Shown: positions 9,603 to 61,564 of the stretch, one piece after another
Position numbering within the stretch: the first letter of the stretch is position 1
How the letters are laid out: each line of letters begins with the position of its first letter
Assembly: GCF_964019385.1 (NCBI RefSeq)
Contig: NC_088649.1
Location: 19,420,118-19,484,117, forward strand
DNA length: 64,000 nt
Source: Sycon ciliatum
Lineage: Eukaryota > Porifera > Calcarea > Leucosolenida > Sycettidae
Reading direction: 5' to 3'
Translations under genes and position numbers: made by a program
Notes under the pieces: model-generated
What the model saw: the letters and a program-made list of their open reading frames with translations, nothing else
What the model was told of the DNA's origin: nothing
Databases searched by the model: none

Positions 9603-9701
9603 TGTGTATGGTTTTCCATTTAATGAAGTGGCTGCAGTGGAGCTTGCACATTTTAACTACATTACTAGTCATCTTTCCTTTTACTCTGAAACTCGAGCCG
9701 A

Positions 9702-9765
9702 TCAAGTGTCAAGTCAAGTCGGCGGAATAGCGCGCGCTCCAGTGTGGGGAGCAAACCCTTTTCTG
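9702..9765 (+). repeat. Fragment of the hammerhead-bearing repeat unit
   Basis: About 64 bases (TCAAGTGTCAAG ... GGCGGAATAGCGCG ... GTGTGGGGAGCAAACCCTTT) match the part of the 479-nt unit found at 59490-59552. No ribozyme is present in this copy. Confidence 0.8.
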
Positions 9766-9882
9766 AAACTCGGATCACTATAGTATTTTCATCGCAAGTT
9801 CATCCAGATTCAGAAAACGCTAAAGGTTTTAACCGCAAAAGTTAGTCGTTCTACAATAGTTCTGAACGGTGTGCTACACCTC

Positions 9883-11818: not shown

Positions 11819-11945
11819 CTACACCATAGCTCAGTGGTTAGAGCATCGCTGGCTACAAGCGAGGGTCCCTGGTTCGAGTCCTGGTGGTGACAGTCAATTT
11901 TTTCTTCAGACTTTTCCCGTTCGTGTCTTTTCCCTCAAACCAGTT
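11819..11945 (+). mobile_element. tRNA-derived SINE, copy 1
   Basis: The tRNA-like head has an A box (TAGCTCAGTGGTTAGAGCA, 11827-11845) and a B box (GGTTCGAGTCC, 11871-11881), which form the internal pol III promoter. The tail (GTCAATTTTTTCTTCAGAC ... CCCTCAAACCAG) is shared with 17664-17760 and 60067-60118. The head fused to a constant tail makes this a SINE rather than a tRNA gene. Confidence 0.8.
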
Positions 11946-12324
11946 AATACAGCGTATCTTGAAAATCAGGCTTCTATTCGACACAGGCTTCTATTCGACA
12001 CAGGCTTCTATATGAAACAGGCTCTCATACAAACAAACAAAAATTCAAGGTTTGCATGAGACTCGGCTCGGCTCTCAAACAAGACACTACATACAGTGCA
12101 CGGCAGGGAGGGCCCTATGGCTTGTTAGTGCGCTCCAGGGTAGTCAGAGGGCCGTAGTACGATATCAATAAGGAGCTTGGTTACGCCATTCTGCACTGGT
12201 TGATGTCCAGAGCCTGGACTGTTTGTTGATGTCCTGTGATTGATCTTTTTGGTTTTATTATTGGATTGGATTTGCTTTTGGTTTGGAAAGTCTGATTTGG
12301 GTTTTTTTTTATGCCATGCCGCAG

Positions 12325-17402: not shown

Positions 17403-17632
17403 TAACTCGGATACTGAGCCAGTAATACATGTAAAAAAAAAGAGAAGAAACACATGAGAACGAGTCATGCAGCAACTATACAAGATGTCTTAACTCGCTG
17501 AATAACTCAGTATCCTGTCAGTTTTGTGCCCTATTATCGCACTTTCTGACTGTTTATCATCTTGTTACAGTCGTGGATAGTTGCTGCATAACTCGTTCTC
17601 ATGTGTTTTCTTCTCTTCTTTTATTTTTAGAT
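17403..17632. mobile_element. Fold-back element, AACTCGGATACTGAGCC family, copy 1
   Basis: Inverted arms include GAACGAGTCATGCAGCAACT and its near-complement around 17572-17600. The left end AACTCGGATACTGAGCCAGT and an internal CAGTTTTGTGCC...GCACTTTCTGACT recur at 58806-59356. Confidence 0.6.
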
Positions 17633-17663: not shown

Positions 17664-17760
17664 TTGGTCACTGGTTTGAGGGAAAGACGCAAACGGGAAC
17701 AGTCTGAAGAAAAATTGACTGTCACCACCGGGACTCGAACCAGGGACCTTCGCTTTTGAA
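17664..17760 (-). mobile_element. tRNA-derived SINE, copy 2 (5' truncated)
   Basis: On the minus strand: B box GGTTCGAGTCC, GGTGGTGACAGTCAAT and the same tail as the 11819 copy. The head is cut before the A box. Confidence 0.75.
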
Positions 17761-24394: not shown

Positions 24395-25894
24395 AATCAA
24401 AAAAATTGTTTTTATAATTTTCGTCATGTGACGAGTGTTGTTTTGTGGCCTATTCCTGGAGTGTGATTGGTGCTTCCACGACAACACTTGGCACATGACG
24501 AACTTTTGCGGATCCTTTGCTCCCGTGTAGACGCGCGAAAACGATACAAACGGAGACCACCTCGGATCAGCTTTGATCGTGTAAATGCACGAAAACGAAA
24601 AAAGAAATGCGGGACTGAAAACGGAAAACTGGCCGTGCGTTGTCGTGTAAACGCAGCCTGAGACGCTCCCTTCCTACTTGAATCCCAATCGAACTCGCGC
24701 ACTTCCACCGAAACTGGGTGACTGCGCCCTACTAGATGGGGATTTGTATGCAAAATGTCACTAAAAGCGCCATTTCGTTCTTATAAAAGCACGGATGACC
24801 GCGATTGGCCCATATGTTGCAGTCTTTGGGACGCTGAGTGGACTGGTTTTGGTCCGAAAAGGCTGCGATGCGGCGTTCCTCCTTTATTCCCAATCGAACA
24901 TGGTTGAAGAAGCGGTCACGTGCTCCTGCGTACACCAGTCACCTGGTCACCGTGCCTGCAGGGTACAACTTACTAGCCTGTTTGACCTTTTTTGGGTGCA
25001 GTCCTGTCACTCGAGTTGAACCCGAGTTGAACCTTGGTGTGAAAGTTGTCACCTGCTGGCGTGGTGACCAGGTGATTTGGGCACCCAGGACCACGTGACC
25101 GCTTCTTCAACCATGTTCGATTGGGAATAAAGGAGGAACGCTGCATCGCAGCCTTTTCGGACCAAAACCAGTCGACTCAGCGTCCCAAAGACTACAACAT
25201 ATGGGCCAATCGCGGTCATCCGTGCTTTTATAAGAACGAAATGGCACTTTTAGTGACATTTTGAATACAAATCCCCATCTAGTAGGGCGCAGTCACCCAG
25301 TTTCGGTGGAAGTGCGCGAGTTCGATTGGGATTCAAGTAGGAAGGGAGCGTCTCAGTTTCCTCGGACCAAGACCATTCGACTCAGCACCCCGAAGACTAC
25401 AACTGGTGAAATTTTAATTTTTGCCTTAACTTCCCCTTTAAAGAAGAGAATCAAAACTACTTTGTAGTATGTTTCGCGGAGCGATCGCTCAACCTACGTC
25501 ATTCCAACCAGGGAGTCGTAAAAGCCCGGGAGAGGACACGGCACACATTCCCAGAAAACATCTTTGCCTCGCGGTGCCGGGGAACGCTGCCAGGGAACGG
25601 TGTTGCGAGGCAAGGATTTTTATTTTCGAAAATTGTGATGTCTTCTTGAAATACTAATTGGGACATTCTCCGATTTCTCTTAGAGCACGGAGACGATTGC
25701 TCCGTCGAGTCTTCTGATCTCTATTTTCATCCTCAATTCTTCCAGCTGCCTCACTCATTCTCTCTCAGTTTATCGAAGTTAATTTATTCTGAGGCGATGG
25801 AAATGCAAGATAATCCCTAATTGTACTTCACTTTTATTTGAGTTGGGGTGAACGAAATGAGATTTGTGGAAAATGACGCCATTTCCCGTGTTAG

Positions 25895-26390
25895 CCGCTG
25901 GTCGTATCATACAGCCCATATTCCATTGCAGGTGATGGGCGAACGTTCGTGTTGAGATCCGCTGAGCTTCCTCGTACTCGTGGAGTTGAATTTGTGGCAG
26001 AAATTGCACTGAATTGCAGTCAAATGGTTGTGAATGAAACGAGATTTGTGGAAAATGACGCCACTTCCCGTGTTAGCCGCTGGTCGTATCACACAGCCCA
26101 TATTCCATTGCAGGTGATGGGTGAACGTTCGTGTTGAGATCCGCTGAGCTTCCTCGTACTCGTGGAGTTGAATTTGTGGCAGAAATTGCACTGAATTGCA
26201 GTCAAATGGTTGTGAATGAAACGAGATTTGTGGAAAATGACGCCACTTCCCGTGTTAGCCGCTGGTCGTATCATACAGCCCATATTCCATTGCAGGTGAT
26301 GGGCGAACGTTCGTGTTGAGATCCGCTGAGCTTCCTCGTACTCGTGGATTTATGAATTTGTGTCAGAAATTGCACTGAAATTGCAGTCGA
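25895..26390 (+). repeat. 182-bp tandem repeat array in copy 1
   Basis: Nearly three units of a 182-bp repeat (with GCGAACGTTCGTGTTGAGAT and GAATGAAACGAGATTTGTGG). The repeated 62-residue frames inside are a by-product of the repeat. Confidence 0.9.
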
Positions 26391-27087: not shown

Positions 27088-28128
27088 TAGTCTGTTTCAA
27101 AAAGATTTACAATCAGGTTTGGGTCTTAAAAAGTATGAAGATAAGGGAAATTTGGACAACAAAGTACATAGAATGGCTTGTTAGGACACGGCAAATTGTT
27201 CTGTGAAGGTTTCGGAACAATTGGACCAACCGTTAAGGAGTTAGAATTTCGGCCAGGTTTCCGGCCTTTTCCCATGGTTTACAATTTGCCCAGGAAGCCA
27301 GTATCGATTTTTTATCAAAACCCACGATTTATCACTTCCTTTTTGGCCTTGTGGTTATGAATGCTGTCTGCTGACCATGAAGTTGTGAGTTCAAATCCCA
27401 ACCTATCCTCAAGTCAAACTTTTTTTCATTGTTTTGGTGATCAAGCTGGTACAAGACAAAGAAGATGGCTGCACCAAACGACTTGTTGTTGGAGCTCGCG
27501 CTTCCTGCCGAGCTGACTGACACTTGACTGGCTCACGCCATGTGAACACACCCACAACACTGCAATGGTGTGAGTGAATATGGAAGTCATCGCGTTGTAA
27601 TGGAAGTCATCGCGCTGTAGCTTTTTGAGATTTATTTTAGTATTTCAAGATCGCCAATTTATTTGAATTTAGCAGTCAACGCCGTCTTCTATCAGCGTTC
27701 ACAAGCGTCTGCTTTTCTCAAAATGTCGTCGAAGTCACACGGATAGCTTTGCCAAGTCATGGCCAGTGGGAATATGTCCGTGTCGATGTCGTTTTCGTCA
27801 CACGGTGAGTAAATTGCATCGCAGCTCAAAGAAACTATTTTGGTCACAAAACGAATTGGGACCCATGCAGCTCGTCAACATTTACAACACTTTCGTTTCG
27901 ACATGTCCTCTCTGACTCCATTATCGATACGAGGAAGAACTCGTTTGTTGTAAACCAGACGTACATGACAGTATCAACGTGAGTGAGTTGTCATTTTTCC
28001 TGCTTTCGCGCGGAATATTTCTTCGAGTTCACGGTGAGTTTTTCCAGGCAGCGCTCGAGTGCTCATACGGTAAGACGCCAAACTCTGCGGGCGATCGCCA
28101 GGATTGTAAATCTTTTTGAAACGGACTG
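27088..28128. mobile_element. TA-flanked transposon, Tc1/mariner-like, copy 1
   Basis: Ends TAGTCTGTTTCAAAAAGATT and AATCTTTTTGAAACGGACTG, TA at both sides (27086-27087, 28129-28130), 1041 bp. The empty site is preserved at 36365-36367 (GGCCTAGCG) in element copy 3. A tRNA-like stretch occurs near 27345-27405 (TGGTTATGAATGC ... GAGTTCAAATCCC). No transposase frame. A second copy lies at 39003-42283. Confidence 0.85.
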
Positions 28129-28476: not shown

Positions 28477-30691
28477 ACGCGCGTGCGTGCGCATTTTTGT
28501 GCAAATTCCGTTATGAAGTACAAATGATAGGTTTACCTTTTGTACACTCGCCAAGACTTCGGTTAGATTCACTGAGAACCTTTCTGGCCAACCTGGAGGC
28601 TGAGCCTTCCGTTTCCTAAACGGCTTAAGTCACCGCGTACTCAGTATACGAGTAGAAAAGTGTTGAAATTATCAAGATTTATCAATACGGAGCATCAGCA
28701 AATCGAATTTTCGATTTGATTATTCGAATGGCAAAAAGAAAATCAGAGAGAAAATTCGAATGAAAAAGAGGTTCAGCATGTAGCGCAGTCCAGTATTTTC
28801 GAATCGAGTTTTTTTTAGCTTGAGCAGTTGAGGACTGGGATTTTGGGATGTGCAATGAACGGAGTTGCTGTTGTTTCTCATTGCCTTTGGGGATGACGCG
28901 AAGCGGCGGATGCTTCATCCGATTCAGGCTATTGGCGATAGGATCTCTCTTGGAGACCCCTTGAAAAGGCGGATCTCGGCCGAGCTCCTCCGCTATCCCT
29001 TGCATATCAGGAGATTTGCGGACGAATAGGTGAGGGTGGGCCCTACACTGCCTGAGCAGAATGAGATCCATGGTAAGGTCGACCCTCAAATATTTGGCAC
29101 ACTTTGAGTTGCCCTCTCCCTGCGGGGAACTCACGATAGACGCAGATGCCGAGACAACGCCAGCAGGGCTACTGCAGTACTGGGAGCAGGAGGCATACCG
29201 GGGCTGGTAGTTGGTGACAAAGCCATGATTCCAGGATACTTGAAATGAAACAAAATGCACACTTGATAAAACGTTTCACAGTTCGAGAGAGAGGAAAGCG
29301 TCAAGATTGACTAGAAGTCCGTTAGTCGATATCATGTAATTAGGCAAATTTGCCTGTTTGTTCTTCGACTCTAAATAAACAAACAAACAAACAAAAGTCC
29401 TGACTAGTACTTTAGTAAGAACTAGTAGCTACATGCGCAAGAATGAGTACTCGTAGTGCGCCGTGTACTAGAGCACGCGCGGAGCATTCGAAAAGTATTC
29501 GAAAAGTATTTTCTGTTTGCGGGCATTTTTCAGTCGAACAAAGCCCTAGTTTCGACTGATTGAGTGCTTTTCGTGACGATTCTCGAATTTCATTCGAATA
29601 TTCGATTTGCTGATGCTCCGTAATAACGACCTGCAACCATGTACAATATAGATAGATAGGGAACACACATTGATTGTTTTTAAAAGAATCCAGGCAATAT
29701 CATGAATCATGGTACGAGTGCGTAATAATGCTCTATGTTGCGTTTTGACGATGCTGAAGGAAGGGAGCCTTTGCGACTCACTCACAATACACACGCACAG
29801 AAGTCCACTCGACTGCAATTTCAGTGCGATTTCTGACACAAATTCATAAATCCACGAGTACGAGGAAGCTCAGCGGATCTCAACACGAACGTTCGCCCAT
29901 CACCTGCAATGGAATATGGGCTGTATGATACGACCAGCGGCTAACACGGGAAGTGGCGTCATTTTCCACAAATCTCGTTTCATTCACAACCATTTGACTG
30001 CAATTCAGTGCAATTTCTGCCACAAATTCAACTCCACGAGTACGAGGAAGCTCAGCGGATCTCAACACGAACGTTCACCCATCACCTGCAATGGAATATG
30101 GGCTGTATGATACGACCAGCGGCTAACACGGGAAGTGGCGTCATTTTCCACAAATCTCGTTTCATTCACAACCATTTGACTGCAATTCAGTGCAATTTCT
30201 GCCACAAATTCAACTCCACGAGTACGAGGAAGCTCAGCGGATCTCAACACGAACGTTCGCCCATCACCTGCAATGGAATATGGGCTGTATGATACGACCA
30301 GCGGCTAACACGGGAAATGGCGTCATTTTCCACAAATCTCATTTCGTTCACCCCAACTCAAATAAAAGTGAAGTACAATTAGGGATTATCTTGCATTTCC
30401 ATCGCCTCAGAATAAATTAACTTCGATAAACTGAGAGAGAATGAGTGAGGCAGCTGGAAGAATTGAGGATGAAAATAGAGATCAGAAGACTCGACGGAGC
30501 AATCGTCTCCGTGCTCTAAGAGAAATCGGAGAATGTCCCAATTAGTATTTCAAGAAGACATCACAATTTTCGAAAATAAAAATCCTTGCCTCGCAACACC
30601 GTTCCCTGGCAGCGTTCCCCGGCACCGCGAGGCAAAGATGTTTTCTGGGAATGTGTGCCGTGTCCTCTCCCGGGCTTTTACGACTCCCTGG
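28259..30691 (-). mobile_element. CCAGGGAG-terminus element, copy 2 (inverted)
   Basis: Reverse complement of the left part of copy 1. It contains the CA/poly-G compound (28351-28480) and the 182-bp array (about 29838-30340), and ends at 30691 with the CCAGGGAG terminus. The inner end is truncated at the hairpin. A 933-bp MITE (28688-29620) is inserted. Confidence 0.8.
28688..29620. mobile_element. TA-flanked element with CGGAGCATCAGC ends
   Basis: Ends CGGAGCATCAGCAAATCGAA and its complement (TTCGATTTGCTGATGCTCCG), TA at both sides (28686-28687, 29621-29622). The uninterrupted sequence is visible in copies 1 and 3. It carries an unrecognised minus frame (to about 29260) with RVDLTMDLILLRQCRAHPHL and LNRMKHPPLRVIPKGNEKQQ, possibly remnant coding DNA. 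Confidence 0.85.
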
Positions 30692-34112: not shown

Positions 34113-35022
34113 CAAATGGTTTTGAACACTCGTACCACCAACTATACCACTTTCAATAAATCGTGACGCCATTTTGTTTTAACATGAATATCGCGGATTG
34201 GGACATTCTCCGATTTCTCTTAGAGCACGGAGACGATTGCTCCGTCGAGTCTTCTGATCTCTATTTTCATCCTCAATTCTTCCAGCCGCCGCACTCATTC
34301 TCTCTCAGTTTATCGAAGTTAATTTATTCTGAGGCGATGGAAATGCAAGATAAATCCCTAATTGTACTTCACTTTTATTTGAGTTGGGGTGAACGAAATG
34401 AGATTTGTGGGAAATGACGCCACTTCCCGTGTTAGCCGCTGGTCGTATCATACAGCCCATATAAATATATATAGGCATATTCCATTGCAGGTGATGGGCG
34501 AACGTTCGTGTTGAGATCCGCTGAACTTCCTCGTACTCGTGGAGTCGAATTTGTGGCAGAATTTGCACTGAATTGCAGTCAAATGGTTGTGAATGAAACG
34601 AGATTTGTGGAAAATGACGCCACTTCCCGTGCTAGCCGCTGGTCGTATCATACAGCCCATATTCCATTGCAGGTGATGGGCGAACGTTCGTGTTGAGATC
34701 CGCTGAGCTTCCTCGTACTCGTGGAGTTGAATTTGTGGCAGAAATTGCACTGAATTGCAGTCAAATGGCTGTGAATGAAACGAGATTTGTGGAAAATGAC
34801 GCCACTTCCCGTGTTAGCCGCTGGTCGTATCATACAGCCCATATTCCATTGCAGGTGATGGGCGAACGTTCGTGTTGAGATACGCGGGGCTTCCTCGTAC
34901 TCGTGAATTTATGAATTTGTGTCAGAAATTGCACTGAAATTGCAGTCGAGTGGACTTCTGTGCGTGTGTTGTGAGTGAATCGCAAAGGCTCCCTTCCTTC
35001 AGCATCGTCAAAACGCAACATA

Positions 35023-38100: not shown

Positions 38101-38218
38101 CTACTCACCTCCCACCGCTTAGGAGCTGCATCTGCGCCTTGATCCAAGAGGGTGGTGGCGTTCCTGCGGATGCGGAAAACTGGGCCTTTGGCCGAGTCTC
38201 ACGCGAACCGTGAAATTT
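38101..38218 (+). repeat. Dispersed repeat of about 110 bp, copy 2
   Basis: CTCACCTCCCACCG ... GAGCTGCATCTGCGCCTTG ... GGGTGGTGGCGTTCCTGCGG matches 49098-49206 (minus) and part of 4385-4480. Confidence 0.65.
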
Positions 38219-38264
38219 TTTTTTTTTTTTTTTTTTCCCCTTTAACGTCGCACCACAAACAGGC

Positions 38265-38464
38265 NNNNNNNNNNNNNNNNNNNNNNNNNNNNNNNNNNNN
38301 NNNNNNNNNNNNNNNNNNNNNNNNNNNNNNNNNNNNNNNNNNNNNNNNNNNNNNNNNNNNNNNNNNNNNNNNNNNNNNNNNNNNNNNNNNNNNNNNNNNN
38401 NNNNNNNNNNNNNNNNNNNNNNNNNNNNNNNNNNNNNNNNNNNNNNNNNNNNNNNNNNNNNNNN
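38265..38464. other. Assembly gap, exactly 200 N
   Basis: Exactly 200 N between a T18/CCCC region and a poly-C/CA compound repeat (38474-38503). The true length is unknown. Upstream lectin exons may be missing here. Confidence 0.99.
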
Positions 38465-38607
38465 ACACGCAGACCCCCCCCCCCCCCCCCACACACACAC
38501 ACAACGCCATACACAGAGATACTTACACACATTTGCGGCTTTACCACTAAAACAAGTGCTAATGTGTAGATTGTTTCTTGATTTTCTATTGTGTTCTTTT
38601 GTACCAG

Positions 38608-38982
38608 GTTCACTAAACTGTTACGGTAGAGTATGGAGATGGTATGACTCGAAAACTACTTGGAATGTAGCACAGAAATATTGTGCTTCGAAGCGACTAC
38701 GACTGGCAACTGTGTACAATAGCAATGAATTCACCCACTGTTTGGGAAAGGTACCATTGTTTCGTGCTGTGCCGGACAGGTGGATTGGCCTGAATGATAA
38801 GGACACGGAGGGTGTATATAGATGGGATGCTACTCAGCATACAACCAGACCTGGAAATTGGTGGTGGGCTTGGAATGAGCCAAACAATTATCTTGATGGA
38901 GAAGACTGTATACTGTATCGTGGCGATCGTCGACTGAATGATCACAACTGCAATGTTCACAAAGCCGGATTTGTGTGTGAAG
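38608..38982 (+). CDS. C-type lectin-like domain exon 1
   Basis: A 375-bp symmetric exon, phase 1 to 1. A textbook pyrimidine tract and TACCAG acceptor precede it, and the donor is GAAG|GTAAGA. It encodes one complete CTLD: SLNCYGRVWRWYDSKTTW at the start, WIGLND in the core, EPNNYLDGEDC and LNDHNC around the sugar/Ca2+ site, and GFVCE at the end. EPN with the ND of LND is the calcium-ligand pattern of mannose-type lectins, so calcium-dependent sugar binding is plausible. Phase 1-1 exons are typical of modular extracellular proteins. Neighbouring exons (signal peptide, membrane anchor) are not seen; the gap is 140 bp upstream. Confidence 0.9.
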
Positions 38983-39002
38983 GTAAGATAAGATGTACAC
39001 TA

Positions 39003-42000
39003 TAGTCCGTTTAACAAAGATTTACAATCAGGTTTTGGTCTTAAAAAGTATGAAGATGAGGGAAATTTGGCCAACAAAGTACATAAAAGGGCTTGTTAGG
39101 GCACGGCAAATTGTTCTGTGAAGATTTCGGAACAATTGAACCAGCGGTTAAGGGGGCAGCCTACCCATAAATTTCATATGGCATTCAATTGACCGTAACT
39201 TTGGTGTTTCTCAATGGATTTGAGTGAAATTTTGACCACACACTCATGCCACTATGCTGGCCCTCACGACATGATTTACAAGTTCTTGCGCCTCACTGAC
39301 AGGCTTTCCAGGCCGGAAAAACTCAAATTTCCGGCATAGTGCCACGGTGTGCGAGCCACCCAGGAGCCAAACAAAAGCATTTACAATTTTTCACATTTTC
39401 GTGCTCATTCTGTTTGTGCGCGGGACTCGAACCTAGAACAAGTCCAGAAGCAGCCATGGGTGATGGGGTAGGGCCCATCAACGAGGCCCTGGAATCTGTC
39501 ACAACGGAACGAGTGGGCGTTTTCTCACACACTCCCACAGACCCAAGTCAATTTTTGAATTTTTTTAGGTTTAGCACGTGCTACGAGGTCGTACCTTTGA
39601 TACAACATCCAGTGCTGGGACCTCCACAGCAAGCCATTTCCACAGCGCTGCACACCAAATCCAGGATACCCTCAGAAACCGGCAAAGACTACCACTCACG
39701 TTTCACTACTGCCTAGTACTGAATCCTACCTGACTTCTTGACACGACTCAAACTTGCCAAAGTCACTAAATCAACGTCAACTACAATAATCAAGCCACAT
39801 ATCTGCAACGTCACAAGGGTGCTGGCAAAAGTCCTGCTGCACAGCGGCGGGCTTTGCCCGCCGCCGTGCAGCCCAATACGTGGCTCAAAAACCTGTTTTT
39901 TTGGACTTGGAGCAAAATTCTGCACACTTTCACGTGTTTCCATGATACGACAAGTTGCGCACGGTCTGCTCACATTCAAATACAGTGCTGCCAACAAATG
40001 ACAGCGTGCAACAAAAAAATCTTTCCTTGCAAGGGCACATTTTCGGCCATAACTCTTGAACGGCCGGTCAGATCGGGACACAATTTTCAGAGAATTTGCA
40101 GCTATTCATGCTCTTTCAACTGACGTAGCACTCAATATGAATTTACAAATTCGATTTTTCAGCGAATTTTTGGGTAGTCTGCCACCTTAATTTTTTTTCA
40201 GCGAATTTTTGGGTAGTCTGCCACCTTAATTTTTTTCAGCGAATTTTGGGTAGTCTGCCACCTTAATTTTTTTTCAGCGAATTTTTGGGTAGTCTGCCAC
40301 CTTAGGTAGTCTGCCACCTTAGGTGGCAGACTAGGTGGCAGACTACCCAAAAATTCGCTGAAAAATCGAATTTGTAAATTCATATTGAGTGCTACGTCAG
40401 TTGAAAGAGCATGAATAGCTGCAAATTCTCTGAAAATTGTGTCCCGATCTGACCGGCCGTTCAAGAGTTATGGCCGAAAATGTGCCCTTGCAAGGAAAGA
40501 TTTTTTTGTTGCACGCTGTCATTTGTTGGCAGCACTGTATTTGAATGTGAGCAGACCGTGCGCAACTTGTCGTATCATGGAAACATGTGAAAGTGTGCAG
40601 AATTTTGCTCCAAGTCCAAAAAATCAGGTTTTTGAGCCACGTATTGGGCTGCACGGCGGCGGGCGAAGCCCGCCGCCGTGCAGCAGGACTTTTGCCAGCA
40701 CCCTCGTGACGTTGCAGATGTGTGGCTTGATTATTGTAATTGACGTTGATTTAGTGACTTTGGCAAGTATGAGTCGTGTCAAGAAGTCAGGTAGGATTCA
40801 GTACTAGGCAGTAGTGAAACGTGAGTGGTAGTCTTTGCCGGTTTCTGAGGGTATCCTGGATTTGGTGTGCAGCGCTGTGGAAATGGCTTGCTGTGGAGGT
40901 CCCAGCACTGGATGTTGTATCAAAGGTACGACCTCGTAGCACGTGCTAAACCTAAAAAAATTCAAAAATTGACTTGGGTCTGTGGGAGTGTGTGAGAGAA
41001 CGCCCACTCGTCCCGTTGTGACAGATTCCAGGGCCTCGTTGAGGGGCCCTACCCCATCACCCATGGCTGCTTCTGGACTTGTTCTAGGTTTGAGTCCCGC
41101 GCACGAGCAGAATGAGCACGAAAATGTGAAAAAATTGTAAATGCATTTGTTTGGCTCCTGGGTGGCTCGCACACCGTGGCACTATGCCGGAAATTTGAGT
41201 TTTTCCGGCCTGGAAAGCCTGTCAGTGAGGCGCAAGAACTTGTAAATCATGTCGTGAGGGCCAGCATAGTGGCAGGAGTGTGTGGTCAAAATTTCACTCA
41301 AATCCAAAGTTACGGTGAATTGAATGCCATATGAAATTTATGGGTAGGCTGCCCCCTTAAGGAGTTAAAATTTCGGCCAGGTTTCGGGCCTTTTCCCATG
41401 GTTTACAATTTTTCCTGGAAGCCAGTATCGATTTTTCATCAAAACCCACGATTTATCTCTTCCTTTTTGGCCTTGTGGTTATGAATGCTGTCTGCTGACC
41501 ATGAAGTTGTGAGTTCAAATCCCAACAAATCTTCAAGTCAAACATTTTTTTCTTCATTTTTTCATTGTTTTGGTGATCACGCTGGTACAAGACAAAGAAG
41601 GTGGCTGCGCCAAACGACTTGTTGCTGTTTCCTGCCGAACTGACTGACACTTGACTGGCTCACGCCATGTGAAGCTGTGAACACACACAACACTGAAACG
41701 GTGTGAGTGAACGCGGAAGTCAGTGCGCTGTAGCTGCGTGTTGTTGAATACACCAGCACATCGATCGATCAATTTCTTTTTGAGAATTATTTTAGTATTT
41801 CAAGATCGCCAATTTATTTGAATTTAGGAGTCAACGCCGTCTTCTATCAGCTTTCACAGGCGCCTGCTTTTCTCAAGATGTTGTCGAAGTCACACGGATA
41901 GCTTTGCCAAGTCATGGCCTTGGGAATGAGTCTGTGTCGATGCCGTTTTCGTCACATCGTGAGAGTAAATTTCATCCGCGGCAGCTCAAAGAATCTATTT

Positions 42001-54765: not shown

Positions 54766-54905
54766 TATTTTAACAATCATTGAGGCAACAAGAAACGTAA
54801 AATTGCGATGAATAAAACTAATTTTCTGTCATTTCAATGTAAACTAAATAAAATATATTCTACTAGGATCCTAAATGAATATTTTCTCTGTACACTATAT
54901 TTCAG

Positions 54906-55316
54906 TACCTACACCAGGAGGAAGTTGCCCAGCACAAGCTTGCTGGTTTCCAGGTGCACTGAAATGTTACATTCGGCAGGATTATTTACGTACGACATGG
55001 CCGGAAGCAGCAACACATTGCCGTCAACTGCTCCCGGGTGCCAGAATGTTATCAATCAACTCTCAAGAAGAGCAAGATGAAGTGGCCAGTCATGTTCTGA
55101 AGCATGGAAGTTGGGCCTGGTTCAATGCCACTGACATGCGCACTGAGGCAGTTTGGAGCCAAGGGTCTACTCCTTTGAAATATGCCCATTGGAATTTCAT
55201 GACTAGTGAACCGAATGGAGGAAGAGAGGAAAATTGTGCTAGCATAGATGCGCGTCGTGGTGGATTTTGGTTAGATGCGACATGTGTATATACTCTACAT
55301 GTGTTCTGTGAAAGAG
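54906..55316 (+). CDS. C-type lectin-like domain exon 2
   Basis: A 411-bp exon, phase 1 to 1, acceptor ACTATATTTCAG and donor AGAG|GTAAGT. One complete long-form CTLD: an extra N-terminal cysteine pair (CPAQACWF), CYIRQDYLRTTWPEAATHC, an EPN motif in TSEPNGGREENC, WLDATC in the second calcium-site position, and HVFCE at the end. EPN is kept, but the usual WND is WLD, so one calcium ligand is lost and sugar binding is doubtful. Same strand and same phase as the exon at 38608, so the two may belong to one multi-CTLD gene or to tandem lectin genes. Confidence 0.9.
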
Positions 55317-55362
55317 GTAAGTACACATTCGTATCACAATGCAAATGCAAATGGTTAGGAGA

Positions 55363-56505
55363 CCTTATTAATGCGATTAATAGTATAAGTGAAGCGGACA
55401 TTACAAAATGATGAATGAGAATACATGTATCTAAAATGGTTGTTCCTAATCGATTTTCTTGAGACTATCATCAGGGAAAATCGTCTCACAATAGAGGCTA
55501 TACGGAGAAACAAACTACTTATAGGTTATCGGATAGTGAGAAGTATACAAGGTGAGGTGTGAAAAAAAACTAAAGTGGGAGAGAAGACGAAAGAAATTAG
55601 AAGAAAAGATGTGAGAGTGTTCTGACGGTGTGAGCTACTACAAAAGGTGAGTGAAATGAAGGCGTGGAAGCAGGTGAATGTGATAGAGTGAGGAACTGTG
55701 AGGTGTAGGTGTATGCGAATGAATACGTGTGTGAATGCTAGGTGAAGAGTCTCAGTTTTGTGACATTTTCTTTCTAAATGCATAGATTAGGATTGTGTTT
55801 ACGGATGAAAACAGCTTCTAATACCTTAAGTTCACGAAACCTATGAGCACGACACAAAACAGTGAGCAGTGATGAAGAGAGTGAGTTGGACAACCAAGAT
55901 GAAGATGACCGGACTGAAGGTGAGACCACAACGAAAGGGTCAGCAATTAAGAAACACCTCTTGTCTAGTAGCCAATGCCGCTCAGTGTATGATGATTCAT
56001 GCTTCACTGTTTTGTGTCGTGCTCGAAGGTTTCGTGAACTTAAGGTATTAGAAGCTGTTTTCATCCTAAACACAATCCTAATCTATGCATTCAGAAAGAA
56101 AATGTCACAAAACTGAGACTCTTCACCTAGCATTCACACACGTATTCATTCGCATACACCTACACCTCACAGTTCCTCACTCTATCACATTCACCTGCTT
56201 CCACGCCTTCATTTCACTCACCTTTTGTAGTAGCTCACACCGTCAGAACACTCTCACATCTTTTCTTCTAATTTCTTTCGTCTTCTCTCCCACTTTAGTT
56301 TTTTTTCACACCTCACCTTGTATACTTCCCACTGTCCGATAACCTATAAGTAGTTTGTTTCTCCGTATAGCCTCTATTGTGAGACGATTTTCCCTGATGA
56401 TAGTCTCAAGAAAATCGATTAGGAACAACCATTTTAGATACATGTATTCTCATTCATCATTTTGTAATGTCTGCTTCACTTATACTATTAATCGCATTAA
56501 TAAGG
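55363..56505. mobile_element. Fold-back element in lectin intron, arms about 500 bp
   Basis: Near-perfect inverted arms meet around a 130-bp centre (about 55862-55990). GGTTAGGAGACC flanks both sides, which allows a target duplication of 8-12 bp depending on where the terminus is drawn, as in hAT (8) or Mutator-like (9-11) fold-backs. The centre encodes an acidic stretch (SDEESELDNQDEDDRTEGET) in an 84-codon frame that runs into the right arm. Confidence 0.85.
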
Positions 56506-56762: not shown

Positions 56763-58583
56763 GTAAAATGCCTTTCCAGATCCTGCCATCGCTGCTACAT
56801 CCGCAACCTCCGTGCCACGATATCTCCCACAAACCCTCGCCTCCCATCCCTCCCTGTGCTCATTCGTCAACTGCGAAATCCTACCAGCGCCCGGGTCATA
56901 CCTTCGAAGATGGTGGGCCCCAATGGTCGAACAAGAACCTCTCCGGCATCCATTGGTAACTTATTGAACCGCCACTTCGTCAGTCCTGGCTTACAGGTTG
57001 ACCCCGATGCTCCTATTCCCACTATTTCCTCCCTACCTCCACCAGCAACTACATTGCACTCCCTGATCATCACCTCATCGACTGTTCACAAGTATATTGC
57101 AAGACTGCCTCTGAACAAATCCCCCGGAGCTGATAGGATCACCAATGAGATCCTCAGGAAACTGAGCTACTCAATTGCCTGCCCACTCTCCATTCTTTTT
57201 AACCTTTCCCTCTCCTCCCGGCACATTCCCGTCACGATGGAAGTCAGCCACTGTCATTCCAGTGTACAAAAATAAAGGCGACAAGAACAACCCGTCTAAT
57301 TACCGACCAATCTCCCTCCTGTCCTGTGTCTCCAAACTGCTAGAGAGAATAGTGTATGACCGCTTGTATGCCCATATCTCCCCTCTTCTTCACCCCGCTC
57401 AATCTGGCTTCCGTCGTAAGGACAACACATCCCTGCAATTGTCCCGCATAATCCAAGACCTCTGCTCCCTAAAAGACCAGCGGCAGGTCTCCTGCATCTG
57501 TTTCTTCGACCTCTCCAAGGCCTTCGACACCGTGTGGCACAAGGGCCTGATCGCCAAACTTCGTGCCCACGGTGTCTCCGGCTCCCTACTCGCCTGGATA
57601 ACTAGCTACCTCTTGGACCGAAATCAGTGCGTCACAGTGAATGGAACCTTATCTGACCTCGAGTCTGTGACATCCGGAGTGCCCCAGGGCTCCATTTTAG
57701 GTCCCCTGCTCTTCCTCACATATGTTAATGACCTACCCTATGCCATTCCCAATATTTCTTTGTTTGCACATGATACCACTGTCCTTACTTCCTCCCCATC
57801 TCACGCCACCCTGTACCCCAAAGTTCAGACCCGTATCAACGACATTGTTCACTTGATGAGCACTTGGTACCTTAGGCCAAATGTGACCAAAACCGAGCTC
57901 CTCCTTTTTCCCCCTCCCACAGATCCAACGCCCATCTTCCACTTTCCCGATGATCCCGGTCACCCTATCTCTGTAGCGCCCCACCATACGCACCTTGGCA
58001 TTGTCATAGATTCCGCCCTCTCCTGGTCTCACCATGATGATCATGTGTCGTCCAAAGTATGCCGATCTGTCGGCATAATGTCAAGTCACTTGTCCCATTT
58101 GCCCCAAAATTGCCGGATTAATTTTTATAAATCATACATTCTTCCCCTCTTCACGTACGGCTTCCCTGCCTGGTCCACCATTAACAAAACCAACATAGGT
58201 AAATTAGAAGTTCTCCATCGCCGTATACTGCGCATCATATTTCGTACTGATCGCTATATCTCAAATCTAGACTTGTATGCTGCTGCATCTACTACCACTC
58301 TGCAAAACTACCTTGATGCTTCCAAGTGCACCCTGGCACATTCAATTTTTCTTGACCAGCACCCTGCTCATTTACAGTCCCTTAATTGGTTCAATTGGTT
58401 CAAGTCAGGTGGCACCACCCGAAGCTGCGTTCGTCTCCCCTAGCTAGGTCTACCCTATTCGTAAATTCCCCTTTCTTTTCCTCCTACTCCACGTGGCTCC
58501 AACTGCCTCCCAGTGTTAGACAAGCTCCAGATATGCCCAAATTCCGTACCCTCGTCAGACAGCACTTCAGTATCTCCCAGTAA
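56763..58583 (+). pseudogene. CR1/Jockey-type LINE reverse transcriptase, decayed
   Basis: Reads as one RT in three frames, with frame changes near 57235 and 58410; the stop is at 58583. Motifs in order: YIRNLRATISPT, NKSPGADRITNEIL, NYRPISLLSCVSKLLER, FFDLSKAFDTVWH, SGVPQGSILGPLLFLTYVND, LFAHDTT, HTHLGIVID and C-terminal FFSSYSTWLQLPPSVR. The catalytic FADD is FAHD, so one essential Asp is lost. The endonuclease domain is missing. The 3' UTR ends in AAATAAATAAAT/AAT repeats near 58800. A C16/ACC run (56720-56752) lies at its 5' edge. Inactive. Confidence 0.88.
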
Positions 58584-58805: not shown

Positions 58806-59356
58806 TTTGAAACTCGGGTATTGAGCCAATAATAAAAGTAGAAAGGAAAAGGACATATGGAAACGAGTTAAGAGTAACTCTCCACCACTGTAACTAGATA
58901 CTATATACAGTCAGAAAGTGCAACAACTAGGCAAAAAACTGACAGAGTACTGAGACATTCGACGTCCCGACACCTAGCTTCAACCACCCAAGTTGGGTGG
59001 TGTGCTGCTTTGCTGCTTCGAATTGTAGTTAGACCGCTTTGTCAAATCGCCTACTGGTCTCGTCATCGTCCAGTGACAATCGACATTCTTTGTTCCGTTG
59101 GGACTGTAGCTTGTGCTCGTTTTCGTTGCGCTTGCCTTCCCCTCTTTGGTCTTTCCATAACCTTGAACCTTCCAAGTTGGAAGGCTGTCGGTTAGCGCTA
59201 CGGAGATGTGTTGAAGCTAGGTGTCGGGACGTCGAATGTCTCAGTACTCTGTCAGTTTTGTGCCTAGTTGTTGCACTTTCTGACTTTATATAGCATCTAG
59301 TTACAGTGGTGGAGAGTTACTCTTAACTCGTTTCCATATGTCCTTTTCCTTTCTAA
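58806..59356. mobile_element. Fold-back element, AACTCGG family, copy 2
   Basis: Arms (AGTAGAAAGGAAAAGGACAT... against ATGTCCTTTTCCTTTCTAAT) of about 200 bp; internal CAGTTTTGTGCC and GCACTTTCTGACT as in 17403-17632. Its right end abuts the first hammerhead. Confidence 0.7.
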
Positions 59357-59363
59357 TTCACCC

Positions 59364-59407
59364 CTCAACTGATGAGGGGTGAATTCCCCGAAACACTGTG
59401 TATTGAG
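59364..59407 (+). ncRNA. Hammerhead ribozyme 1 (5' side shortened)
   Basis: CTGATGA (59369-59375), GGGG/CCCC stem II with a 6-base loop, GAAA (59390-59393), 3-bp helix III, GTA cleavage triplet. Helix I is limited to CTCAA/TTGAG because the unit starts here. Predicted cleavage between 59402 and 59403. Confidence 0.82.
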
Positions 59408-59795
59408 CAGGGAGTGGTGCTTTCTTGCAGGTTTGCCGAGTCGAAGGTTCGATGGACTTCTCGTGTGCTCTGGATGGCAGTCGTGAGTCAGTCAAGTGTC
59501 AAGTAAAGTCGGCGGAATAGCGCGAGCTCCGGTGTGGGGAGCAAACCCTTTTCTTACAAATCATCGCCGAAGTCGCAACCACTACTTCGTACTGTTGTGC
59601 CCAGCGCGGGCTTGCGACTAGTTGGTTTGGAGGTGACAGCGTTGCGAATGACCGAGGGTCCTCGACGTCTGTCTCACCGTCCAGGAGCGACACTGACTCA
59701 CGCTGCTATCTGGTGCTCACGAGGTGTTTGTCGCGCTGAAAACGGAGCGTCTCTGTAAGTTTGTATCCCTGGTGATGGTCGTGCCTGGAGAGCAC

Positions 59796-59803
59796 TATAT
59801 AAG
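59796..59803 (+). promoter_or_regulatory. TATA box upstream of hammerhead 2
   Basis: TATATAAG, centred in the inverted repeat GAGCAC...GTGCTC (hairpin 59781-59820), about 30 bases before the 5' end of the ribozyme, the expected distance for a pol II start. Conserved before hammerheads 3 and 4. Confidence 0.6.
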
Positions 59804-59832
59804 TGGTGCTCTTCAGGCACAATCTTCCTCAG

Positions 59833-59896
59833 CCTACTCAAGCTCAACTGATGAGGGGTGAATTCCCCGAAACACTGTGTATTGAGCAGGGAGTGG
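59833..59896 (+). ncRNA. Hammerhead ribozyme 2 (complete, type I)
   Basis: Self-cleaving RNA. Core CTGATGA (59848-59854); stem II GGGG/CCCC with loop TGAATT; GAAA (59869-59872). Helix III has three pairs (ACA/TGT, loop CTG). The cleavage triplet GTA is followed by TTGAGC, which pairs with GCTCAA (59842-59847) as helix I. An internal loop (AA against AGG) and an outer stem (CCTACTC against GAGTGG) could supply the loop-loop contact active hammerheads need. Predicted cleavage between 59881 and 59882. Open helix I makes it type I. Confidence 0.9.
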
Positions 59897-60066
59897 TGCT
59901 TTCTTGCAGGTTTGCCGAGTCGAAGGTTCGATGGACTTCTCGTGTGCTCTGGATGGCAGTCGTGAGTCAGTCAAGTGTCAAGTAAAGTCGGCGGAATAGC
60001 GCGAGCTCCGGTGTGGGGAGCAAACCCTTTTCTTAATAATAATCAATTCAGTCAATTCAGTCAATT

Positions 60067-60118
60067 CAGTCAATTTTTTCTTCAGACTTTTCCCGTTTGT
60101 CTCTTTCCCTCAAACCAG
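60067..60118 (+). mobile_element. SINE tail fragment
   Basis: Matches the tail of the 11819 SINE (GTCAATTTTTTCTTCAGAC ... CCTCAAACCAG), preceded by four TCAATTCAG repeats and followed by (AAT)n. Confidence 0.7.
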
Positions 60119-60282
60119 ATAATAATAATAATAATAATAATAATTAAGAAATGGTTTGCTCCCCACACCGGAGCTCGCGCTATTCCGCCGACTTTACTTG
60201 ACACTTGACTGACTCGCGACTGCCATCCAGAGCACACGAGAAGTCCATCGAACCTTCGACTCGGCAAACCTGCAAGAAAGCA

Positions 60283-60346
60283 CCACTCCCTGCTCAATAC
60301 ACAGTGTTTCGGGGAATTCACCCCTCATCAGTTGAGCTTGAGTAGG
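60283..60346 (-). ncRNA. Hammerhead ribozyme 3 (complete, minus strand)
   Basis: Exact inverted copy of hammerhead 2: same core, stems and cleavage triplet. Predicted cleavage between 60298 and 60297 on the minus strand. Confidence 0.9.
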
Positions 60347-60787
60347 CTGAGGAAGATTGTGCCTGAAGAGCACCACTTATATAGTGCTCTCCAGGCACAA
60401 ACATCACCAGGGATACAAACTTACAGAGACGCTCCGTTTCAAGCGCGACAAACACCTCGTGAACACCAGATAGCAGCGTGAGTCAGTGTCGCTCCTGGAC
60501 GGTGAGACAGACGTCGAGGACCCTCCGTCATTCGCAACGCTGTCACCTCCAAACCAACTAGTCGCAAGCCCGCGCTGGGCACAACAGTACGAAGTAGTGG
60601 TTGCGACTTCGGCGATGATTTGTCTGTCTCACCGTCCAGGAGCGACACTGACTCACGCTGCTATCTGGTGTTCACGAGGTGTTTGTCGCGCTTGAAACGG
60701 AGCGTCTCTGTAAGTTTGTATCCCTGGTGATGTTTGTGCCTGGAGAGCACTATATAAGTGGTGCTCTTCAGGCACAATCTTCCTCAG

Positions 60788-60851
60788 CCTACTCAAGCTC
60801 AACTGATGAGGGGTGAATTCCCCGAAACACTGTGTATTGAGCAGGGAGTGG
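60788..60851 (+). ncRNA. Hammerhead ribozyme 4 (complete)
   Basis: Identical to hammerhead 2 by eye, offset by 955 bases. Predicted cleavage between 60836 and 60837. TATATAAG lies about 30 bases upstream. Confidence 0.9.
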
Positions 60852-61030
60852 TGCTTTCTTGCAGGTTTGCCGAGTCGAAGGTTCGATGGACTTCTCGTGT
60901 GCTCTGGATGGCAGTCGTGAGTCAGTCAAGTGTCAAGTAAAGTCGGCGGAATAGCGCGAGCTCCGGTGTGGGGAGCAAACCATTTCTTACAAATCATCGC
61001 CGAAGTCGCAACCACTACTTCGTAATAATA

Positions 61031-61357
61031 ATTAACTCTCTTTATTGCTTATTCTGTTTGGCTCACTCTACCCAGAGATGTTAAGGATCTGACCTCACTC
61101 CGCCTGTTTAAGATCCGTGCCGCCCCTTATTTACTACGACATAAATAGCTCCTTATCCCCATGTCCTTTGCGTCTCTGTGTTTTTCATTTATTTTATTTG
61201 ACATTATATTTCTTTACAGAGTTGTTGTTGCTGTTCATTTTGATACTCTTACTTTTTCCCTCCCCTTACTTTTATTTATCGCCGTGGTTGGCAATCACCC
61301 ACTCTCTTAACATTGGCGGGTGTTTCCACCGAGTGAAATGTTGTAATAAATAAATAA
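61031..61357 (+). mobile_element. 5'-truncated LINE: last RT codons and 3' UTR
   Basis: Opens with the RT C-terminus IAYSVWLTLPRDVKDLTSLR, then LFKIRAAPYLLRHK and a stop at about 61148. The 3' UTR has GCCGTGGTTGGCAATCA and ends AATAAATAAATAAA. Same 3' UTR type as the LINE on the opposite strand at 61383. Confidence 0.75.
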
Positions 61358-61382
61358 AAGAGCTTACGTGGAGATAGAAATG

Positions 61383-61564
61383 TAATTTTTATTTATTTAT
61401 TTATTCAACATCTCCTGGCCCGTCCGAAGACTGCCAATAAACATGAGAGGTCAGGTGATAGCCAACCACGGCAAGCTAAAAGGGAAAAAAAGAAAGATGC
61501 TGTCAGAGAGGGAAAGGAGATAGGGAGAGAAAAAGAAAGGGAGGCACATTAATAATACATGGGA
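61383..61564 (-). mobile_element. 3' UTR of the LINE at 61565
   Basis: On the minus strand: pyrimidine-rich stretch, GCCGTGGTTGGCTATCACC and a terminal AATAAATAAATAAATAAA tail. Confidence 0.75.

Follow-up and report, generated by a model that had tools for sequence, protein, structure and literature searches.

The window, by which we mean the whole 64,000-nucleotide stretch of the Sycon ciliatum genome analysed here (contig NC_088649.1, positions 19,420,118 to 19,484,117), carries near its right end four hammerhead ribozyme motifs. String and descriptor scans place the start of the CTGATGA...GAAA...GTA core at 59369, 59848 and 60803 on the plus strand and at 60331 on the minus strand. The motifs belong to two pairs of repeats, insertions 1 and 2, whose parts and surroundings are collected in Table 1. 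The nearest long ORF has an RVT_1 domain (E 6e-34) and no other domain match, and is followed by an (AAT)n tract. It has 7770 relatives; among the best 120, the top one, from an ENA source, shows 93% identity over 96%, and the single EukProt entry (50% over 59%) carries the name of transposon BS, a non-LTR element, with the prefix scpid of Sycon ciliatum. Of the 33 listed ORFs of at least 150 aa, 20 were scanned for domains: RVT_1 was found in one, Lectin_C in two and GIY-YIG in none, the C-type lectin domains being in keeping with an animal host.

Several other repeats share the window. A MITE-like palindrome with TA on both sides and near-identical ends (98% over 59 columns) lies directly to the left of copy 1, and an end related to it (77%) occurs elsewhere. 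A tRNA-derived SINE-like element is present at two further places (Rfam tRNA, 37.9 bits); ARAGORN, run with the bacterial code, reads it as tRNA-Pyl with anticodon cta, presumably the SINE head, and its tail recurs between copies 2 and 3 (92-93%). A 182-bp tandem repeat forms three arrays (95-96% matches), the middle one in the opposite orientation. Just past the (AAT)n tract, at 58808-58826, TGAAACTCGG is followed by GTATTGAGC, as at the ribozyme cleavage site; TGAAACTCGG also flanks the truncated copy on its right, at 9764, perhaps by coincidence. A possible half-hammerhead at 58809-58826 (GAAACTCGGGTATTGAGC) is without the CTGATGA half, is in neither the descriptor list nor that of the covariance model R1 described below, and was set aside as coincidence.

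Table 1. Features of the hammerhead-bearing element and its neighbours, in positions of the window
Feature	Position	Strand	Remark
Hammerhead copy 1	59363-59408	+	R1 23.9 bits, E 3.5e-5; descriptor 5/4/3 bp; predicted cleavage after 59402
Hammerhead copy 2	59842-59887	+	R1 31.2 bits, E 1.2e-7; descriptor 6/4/3 bp; predicted cleavage after 59881
Hammerhead copy 3	60292-60337	-	R1 31.2 bits, E 1.2e-7; descriptor 6/4/3 bp; predicted cleavage between 60298 and 60297
Hammerhead copy 4	60797-60842	+	R1 31.2 bits, E 1.2e-7; descriptor 6/4/3 bp; predicted cleavage after 60836
Outer stem of copy 2	59834-59839/59891-59896		
Insertion 1, tandem dimer (copies 1-2)	59364-60044	+	core-linker-upstream-core; period 479 bp
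Insertion 2, head-to-head inverted pair (copies 3, 4)	60148-61023	.	1 difference in 367 columns
Candidate left target-site duplication of insertion 2	60136-60147	+	AATAATAATTAA, 12 bp
Candidate right target-site duplication of insertion 2	61024-61035	+	AATAATAATTAA, 12 bp
5'-truncated copy of the element's 3' end	9696-9761	+	66 bp; blastn 94% over 66 bp, 9702-9767
Direct repeats flanking the truncated copy	9685-9695; 9762-9772		TCTGAAACTCG, 11 bp
Weaker match to the element	27491-27537		84% over 49 columns
TATA box upstream of copy 2	59796-59803	+	TATATAAG, at apex of hairpin 59781-59820
TATA box upstream of copy 3	60376-60383	-	TATATAAG
TATA box upstream of copy 4	60751-60758	+	TATATAAG
Monomer bounded by the cleavage sites predicted for copies 1 and 2	59403-59881	+	479 nt; GC 54%
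Palindrome at left end of insertion 1	59355-59385	+	13-bp arms, 5-nt loop; snap-back-like
ORF with RVT_1 domain	57166-58443		
(AAT)n tract	58774		
ORFs with C-type lectin domains	38214-39005; 54875-55411		
MITE-like palindrome	58841-59353		TA on both sides
End related to this palindrome	17564-17619		
tRNA-derived SINE-like element	11820-11949; 17671-17721		
Tail of the SINE-like element	60067-60124		between copies 2 and 3
182-bp tandem repeat arrays	25848-26388; 29811-30351; 34476-34947		middle array in opposite orientation

Detection and architecture of the ribozymes

The type I core, comprising CUGANGA, GAAA, a NUH triplet and three helices with helix I open, is present in all four copies. 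A descriptor requiring the core letters and minimum lengths of 4, 3 and 2 bp for helices I, II and III, respectively, found these four sites in the window and none in 60 first-order Markov shuffles. The covariance model R1 was built from 18 viral-contig hammerheads, the window sequence being absent from it; the 18 were picked for an equal, short helix III out of 64 distinct descriptor matches, and the alignment omits some eligible near-duplicates (L029, L064, L113). The scores of the four copies are given in Table 1, with E-values that the tool itself describes as rough; the next two matches in the window reached 10.5 bits. Applied to seven loci outside the model, R1 gave a match of at least 26 bits in six and none for L122. 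A chance motif is ruled out by the descriptor shuffles together with this independent model, and the hammerhead motifs at the four sites are real. Since the four copies share one ancestor, they amount to one motif seen four times.

The first-pass annotation had named Rfam scores below threshold for all copies as a result that would count against the ribozymes. This is literally what was obtained: Rfam release 15 returned no hammerhead family at gathering score over the whole window, nor at E up to 10 over 59000-61500 and 59820-59910. The viral controls, however, show this to be a poor test. Four of six viral-contig loci with the hammerhead pattern matched a hammerhead family, at 28.1-30.5 bits, and none of the six reached the gathering scores of 34 (type I) or 48.5 (type III). 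The other two, L062 and L121, matched no hammerhead family at E up to 1. The descriptor recognises a canonical motif in L062, which R1 scores at 56.4 bits despite the missing Rfam match; the motif of L121 is weak (R1 26.2 bits). Because the scan is weak on these control hammerheads too, we do not take the Rfam result as defining.

Patterns for the ribozyme and for the 3' part of the element found no copy of the element in the viral-contig and genome-contig collections; in the viral contigs the ribozyme patterns matched two loci, L121 and L122, each considered over its ribozyme-like stretch, and 59364-60044 had no match in the phages collection. In the same viral contigs, L006, L073, L089 and L104 each hold several canonical type I hammerheads in a single stretch (L006 has four R1 matches of at least 47 bits within 4.3 kb), and at L029:579-627 an array of viral tRNAs includes a type I hammerhead, which follows one of the tRNAs at a distance of about 10 bases.

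Stem II consists of 4 bp (GGGG/CCCC) closed by the loop UGAAUU, and helix III of 3 bp (A-U, C-G, A-U, the A15.1-U16.1 pair included) closed by the loop CUG; the cleavage triplet is GUA. The earlier description of a 6-bp helix I with an outer stem in three copies and a 3-bp helix III is borne out: helix I is GCUCAA/UUGAGC, reduced to 5 bp in copy 1, and beyond an AA/AGG internal loop copies 2-4 have in common the 6-bp outer stem CUACUC/GAGUGG, which was read on copy 2, copies 3 and 4 carrying the same letters. In type I hammerheads, the tertiary contact is made by the A's adjoining helix I and by loop II. Among 128 aligned rows, three of them from the window, an A adjoins helix I in at least 96 on the 5' side and at least 73 on the 3' side; 8 viral rows have TGAAT as loop II, and 13 have TAAAT or TAAT. 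Since these features are common in the viral rows, the parts for the tertiary contact look present in copies 2-4, as far as their letters tell. For the 66-mer the hammerhead fold is calculated at -18.8 kcal/mol and the minimum-energy fold at -19.3, a minimum that does not stand out from shuffled sequences (z -1.25), of which 22 of 200 go as low.

Copy 1 differs. It has CC where the other copies have AA beside helix I, the outer stem is missing, and the palindrome at the left end of insertion 1 forms a hairpin that pairs over the ribozyme core (-25.9 kcal/mol by the folding program). Because this left-flank hairpin covers the core, copy 1 is expected to be inactive in a transcript containing the flank and is probably misfolded. 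Thus, of the four type I hammerheads originally announced, all have the core letters and three are intact, while copy 1, with its 13-bp hairpin and no outer stem, is probably misfolded. The compensating helices announced with them fell away: the ribozyme is identical in all four copies from CTCAA on, so there is no covariation.

When two copies were cofolded, a double-hammerhead structure was predicted at -49.3 kcal/mol. As much energy was gained by 53 of 300 shuffles, and 18 of 300 reached that dimer energy; the double hammerhead is therefore compatible with the sequence and no preference for it is indicated, and dimer preference was dropped. The available text of Cervera and de la Pena (2020; PMC7229834) describes amphibian hammerheads with a weak helix III that cleave poorly alone and better as dimers. 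The axolotl and newt retrozyme or satellite hammerheads resemble the present one in their weak helix III and near-palindromic loop, which make a double hammerhead possible; their unit is 330-350 bp according to that text, and the dimer energy gain here does not go beyond shuffles.

Two probable insertions of one repeat unit

Three parts make up the unit: a 193-bp core (from CTCAACTGATGA to TTTCTTA; 192 bp in copies 3-4), a 111-bp linker starting with CAAATCATCG, and 175 bp of upstream sequence ending with the TATA hairpin and the ribozyme. Copies 1 and 2 show no differences over the 193 bp of the core, and copies 3 and 4 differ at one position of the 192-bp core and none of the 175 upstream. 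Between the pairs there are two to three differences over 193 core positions, five over the 175 of the upstream part and one in the linker. Because differences are fewer within pairs than between them, each pair probably derives from one template molecule, judging from the copies themselves. The ribozyme had been called young or conserved; with so few differences within pairs (0/193 and 1/367) and no compensating change in the helices, young fits better.

Insertion 1 is a dimer, with no longer array in the window. On its left, copy 1 adjoins the MITE-like palindrome and not an upstream region of the element, and the flanks of the insertion hold no clear target-site duplication. In insertion 2, one arm is without about 110 bp of the other arm's linker, and an inverted pair of this kind would be the form expected from twin priming. 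The flanking 12-bp words are candidate target-site duplications, the left one being ambiguous in that it lies inside the microsatellite of the SINE tail and TTAA may be the element's end. The 11-bp repeat around the truncated copy, in contrast, is a clear target-site duplication: among the 2,235,800 position-offset pairs of the window at offsets of 60-94, 91 show a recurring complex 11-mer.

The least credible origin of insertion 2 is that the inverted pair 60145-60989 arose from a DNA transposon of foldback type or as an artefact of assembly, the hammerheads being passengers. In favour are the near-perfect palindrome that the pair forms and the palindromic MITE-like element nearby; the missing linker in one arm, the difference between the arms at one of 367 columns, the candidate duplications at both sides and the tandem arrangement of copies 1 and 2 all speak against it.

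Fold of the monomer and the TATA boxes

The RNA between the predicted cleavage sites of insertion 1 would fold into a rod, a shape similar to the one described for retrozymes. Its linear minimum free energy is -204.9 kcal/mol (z -5.54; none of 100 shuffles as low) and its circular one -199.3 (z -5.3; 60 shuffles). The unconstrained linear fold contains 16 of the 19 hammerhead pairs, with helix III open, and the circular minimum-energy fold contains 4 of the 19; enforcing all 19 in the circle costs 2.0 kcal/mol (-197.3 versus -199.3). The minus strand folds at -165.4 kcal/mol against -199.3 for the plus strand, yet the z-scores are equal (-5.26 and -5.3), and we make no claim on strand polarity from folding. 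Nine differences separate the two monomers: five fall at unpaired sites, one keeps its pair and three break theirs. Because the minus strand has an equal z-score and the differences do not favour kept pairs, the rod is a fact of the sequence and no evidence for selection on the RNA; it may reflect an inverted-repeat origin instead. In its present form the locus is probably poor at producing monomer, since copy 1 is without an upstream region and is predicted to misfold.

Each of the three complete upstream regions has a TATATAAG box, which before copy 2 sits at the apex of a hairpin. TATAWAAG occurs nine times on both strands of the 64 kb, and three of the nine are in these upstream regions, which form one family. 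With the usual TATA-to-start spacing of 31-35 nt, the start site would fall at about 59827-59831, slightly ahead of the outer stem at 59834. A bacterial-type scan gave one weak terminator pattern and no sigma-70 promoter, neither of which bears on a eukaryote.

A probable retrozyme-type element and its possible mode of spread

We consider it likely that the cluster represents two insertions of one non-autonomous retrozyme-type element. Animal type I hammerheads are known from tandem repeats of 150-450 bp in many phyla (PMC7229834). As described in the available text of that paper, they give rise to self-paired circular RNAs of about 170-400 nt, the discussion allowing circles of 150 to more than 1000 nt; the circular fold leaves the ribozyme free in most animal retrozymes, GC is below 50%, and target-site duplications, when present, exceed 4 bp. 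The element in S. ciliatum is like these metazoan non-LTR retrozymes in its type I hammerhead with a short helix III, its tandem units, its strongly self-paired monomer and its target-site duplications of more than 4 bp (11 bp, and the candidate of 12 bp). The tandem and inverted repeat of animal-retrozyme kind that the first reading had seen is thus upheld, copies 1-2 being tandem and 3-4 head-to-head. It differs in its unit of 479 bp, just above the range, in its GC of 54%, low GC being read as descriptive and not as defining, and in having a TATA box in a hairpin before the ribozyme as well as an inverted pair. Counting against the retrozyme reading, and lowering our confidence in it slightly, is the circular minimum-energy fold, which does not contain the active ribozyme; the dimer without a longer array, the missing Rfam match and the equally good folding of the minus strand also weigh against it. 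Where the available text of PMC7229834 speaks of a 'promoter', which it does twice, T7 constructs are meant, and 'inverted' is absent; 'sponge' is absent there too and occurs once each in the available text of PMC4918200 (in a reference title) and of PMC7761336. A literature search for hammerhead ribozyme and Amphimedon returned nothing on topic by title. The schistosome satellite repeats and W-elements (PMC4918200, PMC8490949) are also repeated, apparently mobile hammerhead units; as described in the available texts the schistosome repeats hold a full tRNA, whereas none was found in the 479-bp unit, the SINE tail between copies 2 and 3 being a separate neighbour.

It is unlikely, in our estimate, that the element is instead a SINE-like retroposon with a 5' hammerhead, in which the mobile RNA would be the core of about 200 nt, starting from the TATA box and ending at TTTT or TTCTTA, and the tandem and inverted forms would be accidental. 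The truncated copy does end where the core ends, and copies 1 and 2 have both a run of four T's at the core end (CCCTTTTCTTA) and the word GGTTCGA, which resembles a pol III B box. Copies 3 and 4, however, are without the T run, both pairs look copied from multi-unit or circular templates, and an RNA of the core alone would not carry the upstream promoter region that three units possess.

Very improbable is the idea, raised in the first-pass annotation, of a Penelope-like element, or a non-autonomous derivative of one, with the hammerhead in a pseudo-LTR. Such elements bear tandem type I hammerheads (PMC7761336, available text), and the minimal hammerheads of Penelope-like elements and Terminons (PMC7229834, PMC7761336, available texts) share the type I topology and the short helix III. 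The ribozyme here is not of the minimal form, since it has an outer stem, an internal loop and a loop II. In addition, the 20 of 33 ORFs scanned gave no GIY-YIG, and the adjacent reverse transcriptase ORF has RVT_1 only, is followed by the (AAT)n tract and has as its EukProt relative among the best 120 the protein named after transposon BS. The suggestion is not supported.

For the retrozyme-type element we infer cleavage, circle formation, promoter use and a partner enzyme, in the following order. Each unit would be transcribed from its own TATA box, which lies immediately before the hammerhead, and the RNA would extend across the unit as far as the ribozyme of the following one. This pair of hammerheads would then excise a 479-nt rod-like monomer, which a host RNA ligase could join into a circle. 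Finally, a LINE-type reverse transcriptase would copy monomers, multimers or circles into DNA by target-primed reverse transcription, the outcome being tandem dimers such as copies 1-2, inverted twin-primed copies such as 3-4, and 5'-truncated copies with target-site duplications such as 9696-9761. The mobilising enzyme of animal retrozymes is left open in the available text of PMC7229834, where LINEs or Penelope-like elements are proposed, the latter as a strong candidate.

Animal retrozymes being already known, the element described here is best read as a further one, with hints of a promoter and of a mode of insertion. We put forward tentatively, as a possibility that we ourselves consider rather unlikely, that its own TATA box makes every RNA start with a hammerhead which trims the 5' leader, and that a LINE inserts the tandem, twin-primed and truncated copies from multimeric or circular RNA. 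If pol II transcribes the element, the trimmed leader would include the cap. Target-primed reverse transcription of the LINE type is suggested by the truncated copy with its 11-bp repeat and by the inverted pair, which has the form left by twin priming, and the TATA box beside the ribozyme leads to a testable idea of how the unit is transcribed. If the self-trimming reading is true, the element would represent a class of promoter-bearing, self-trimming retrozymes.
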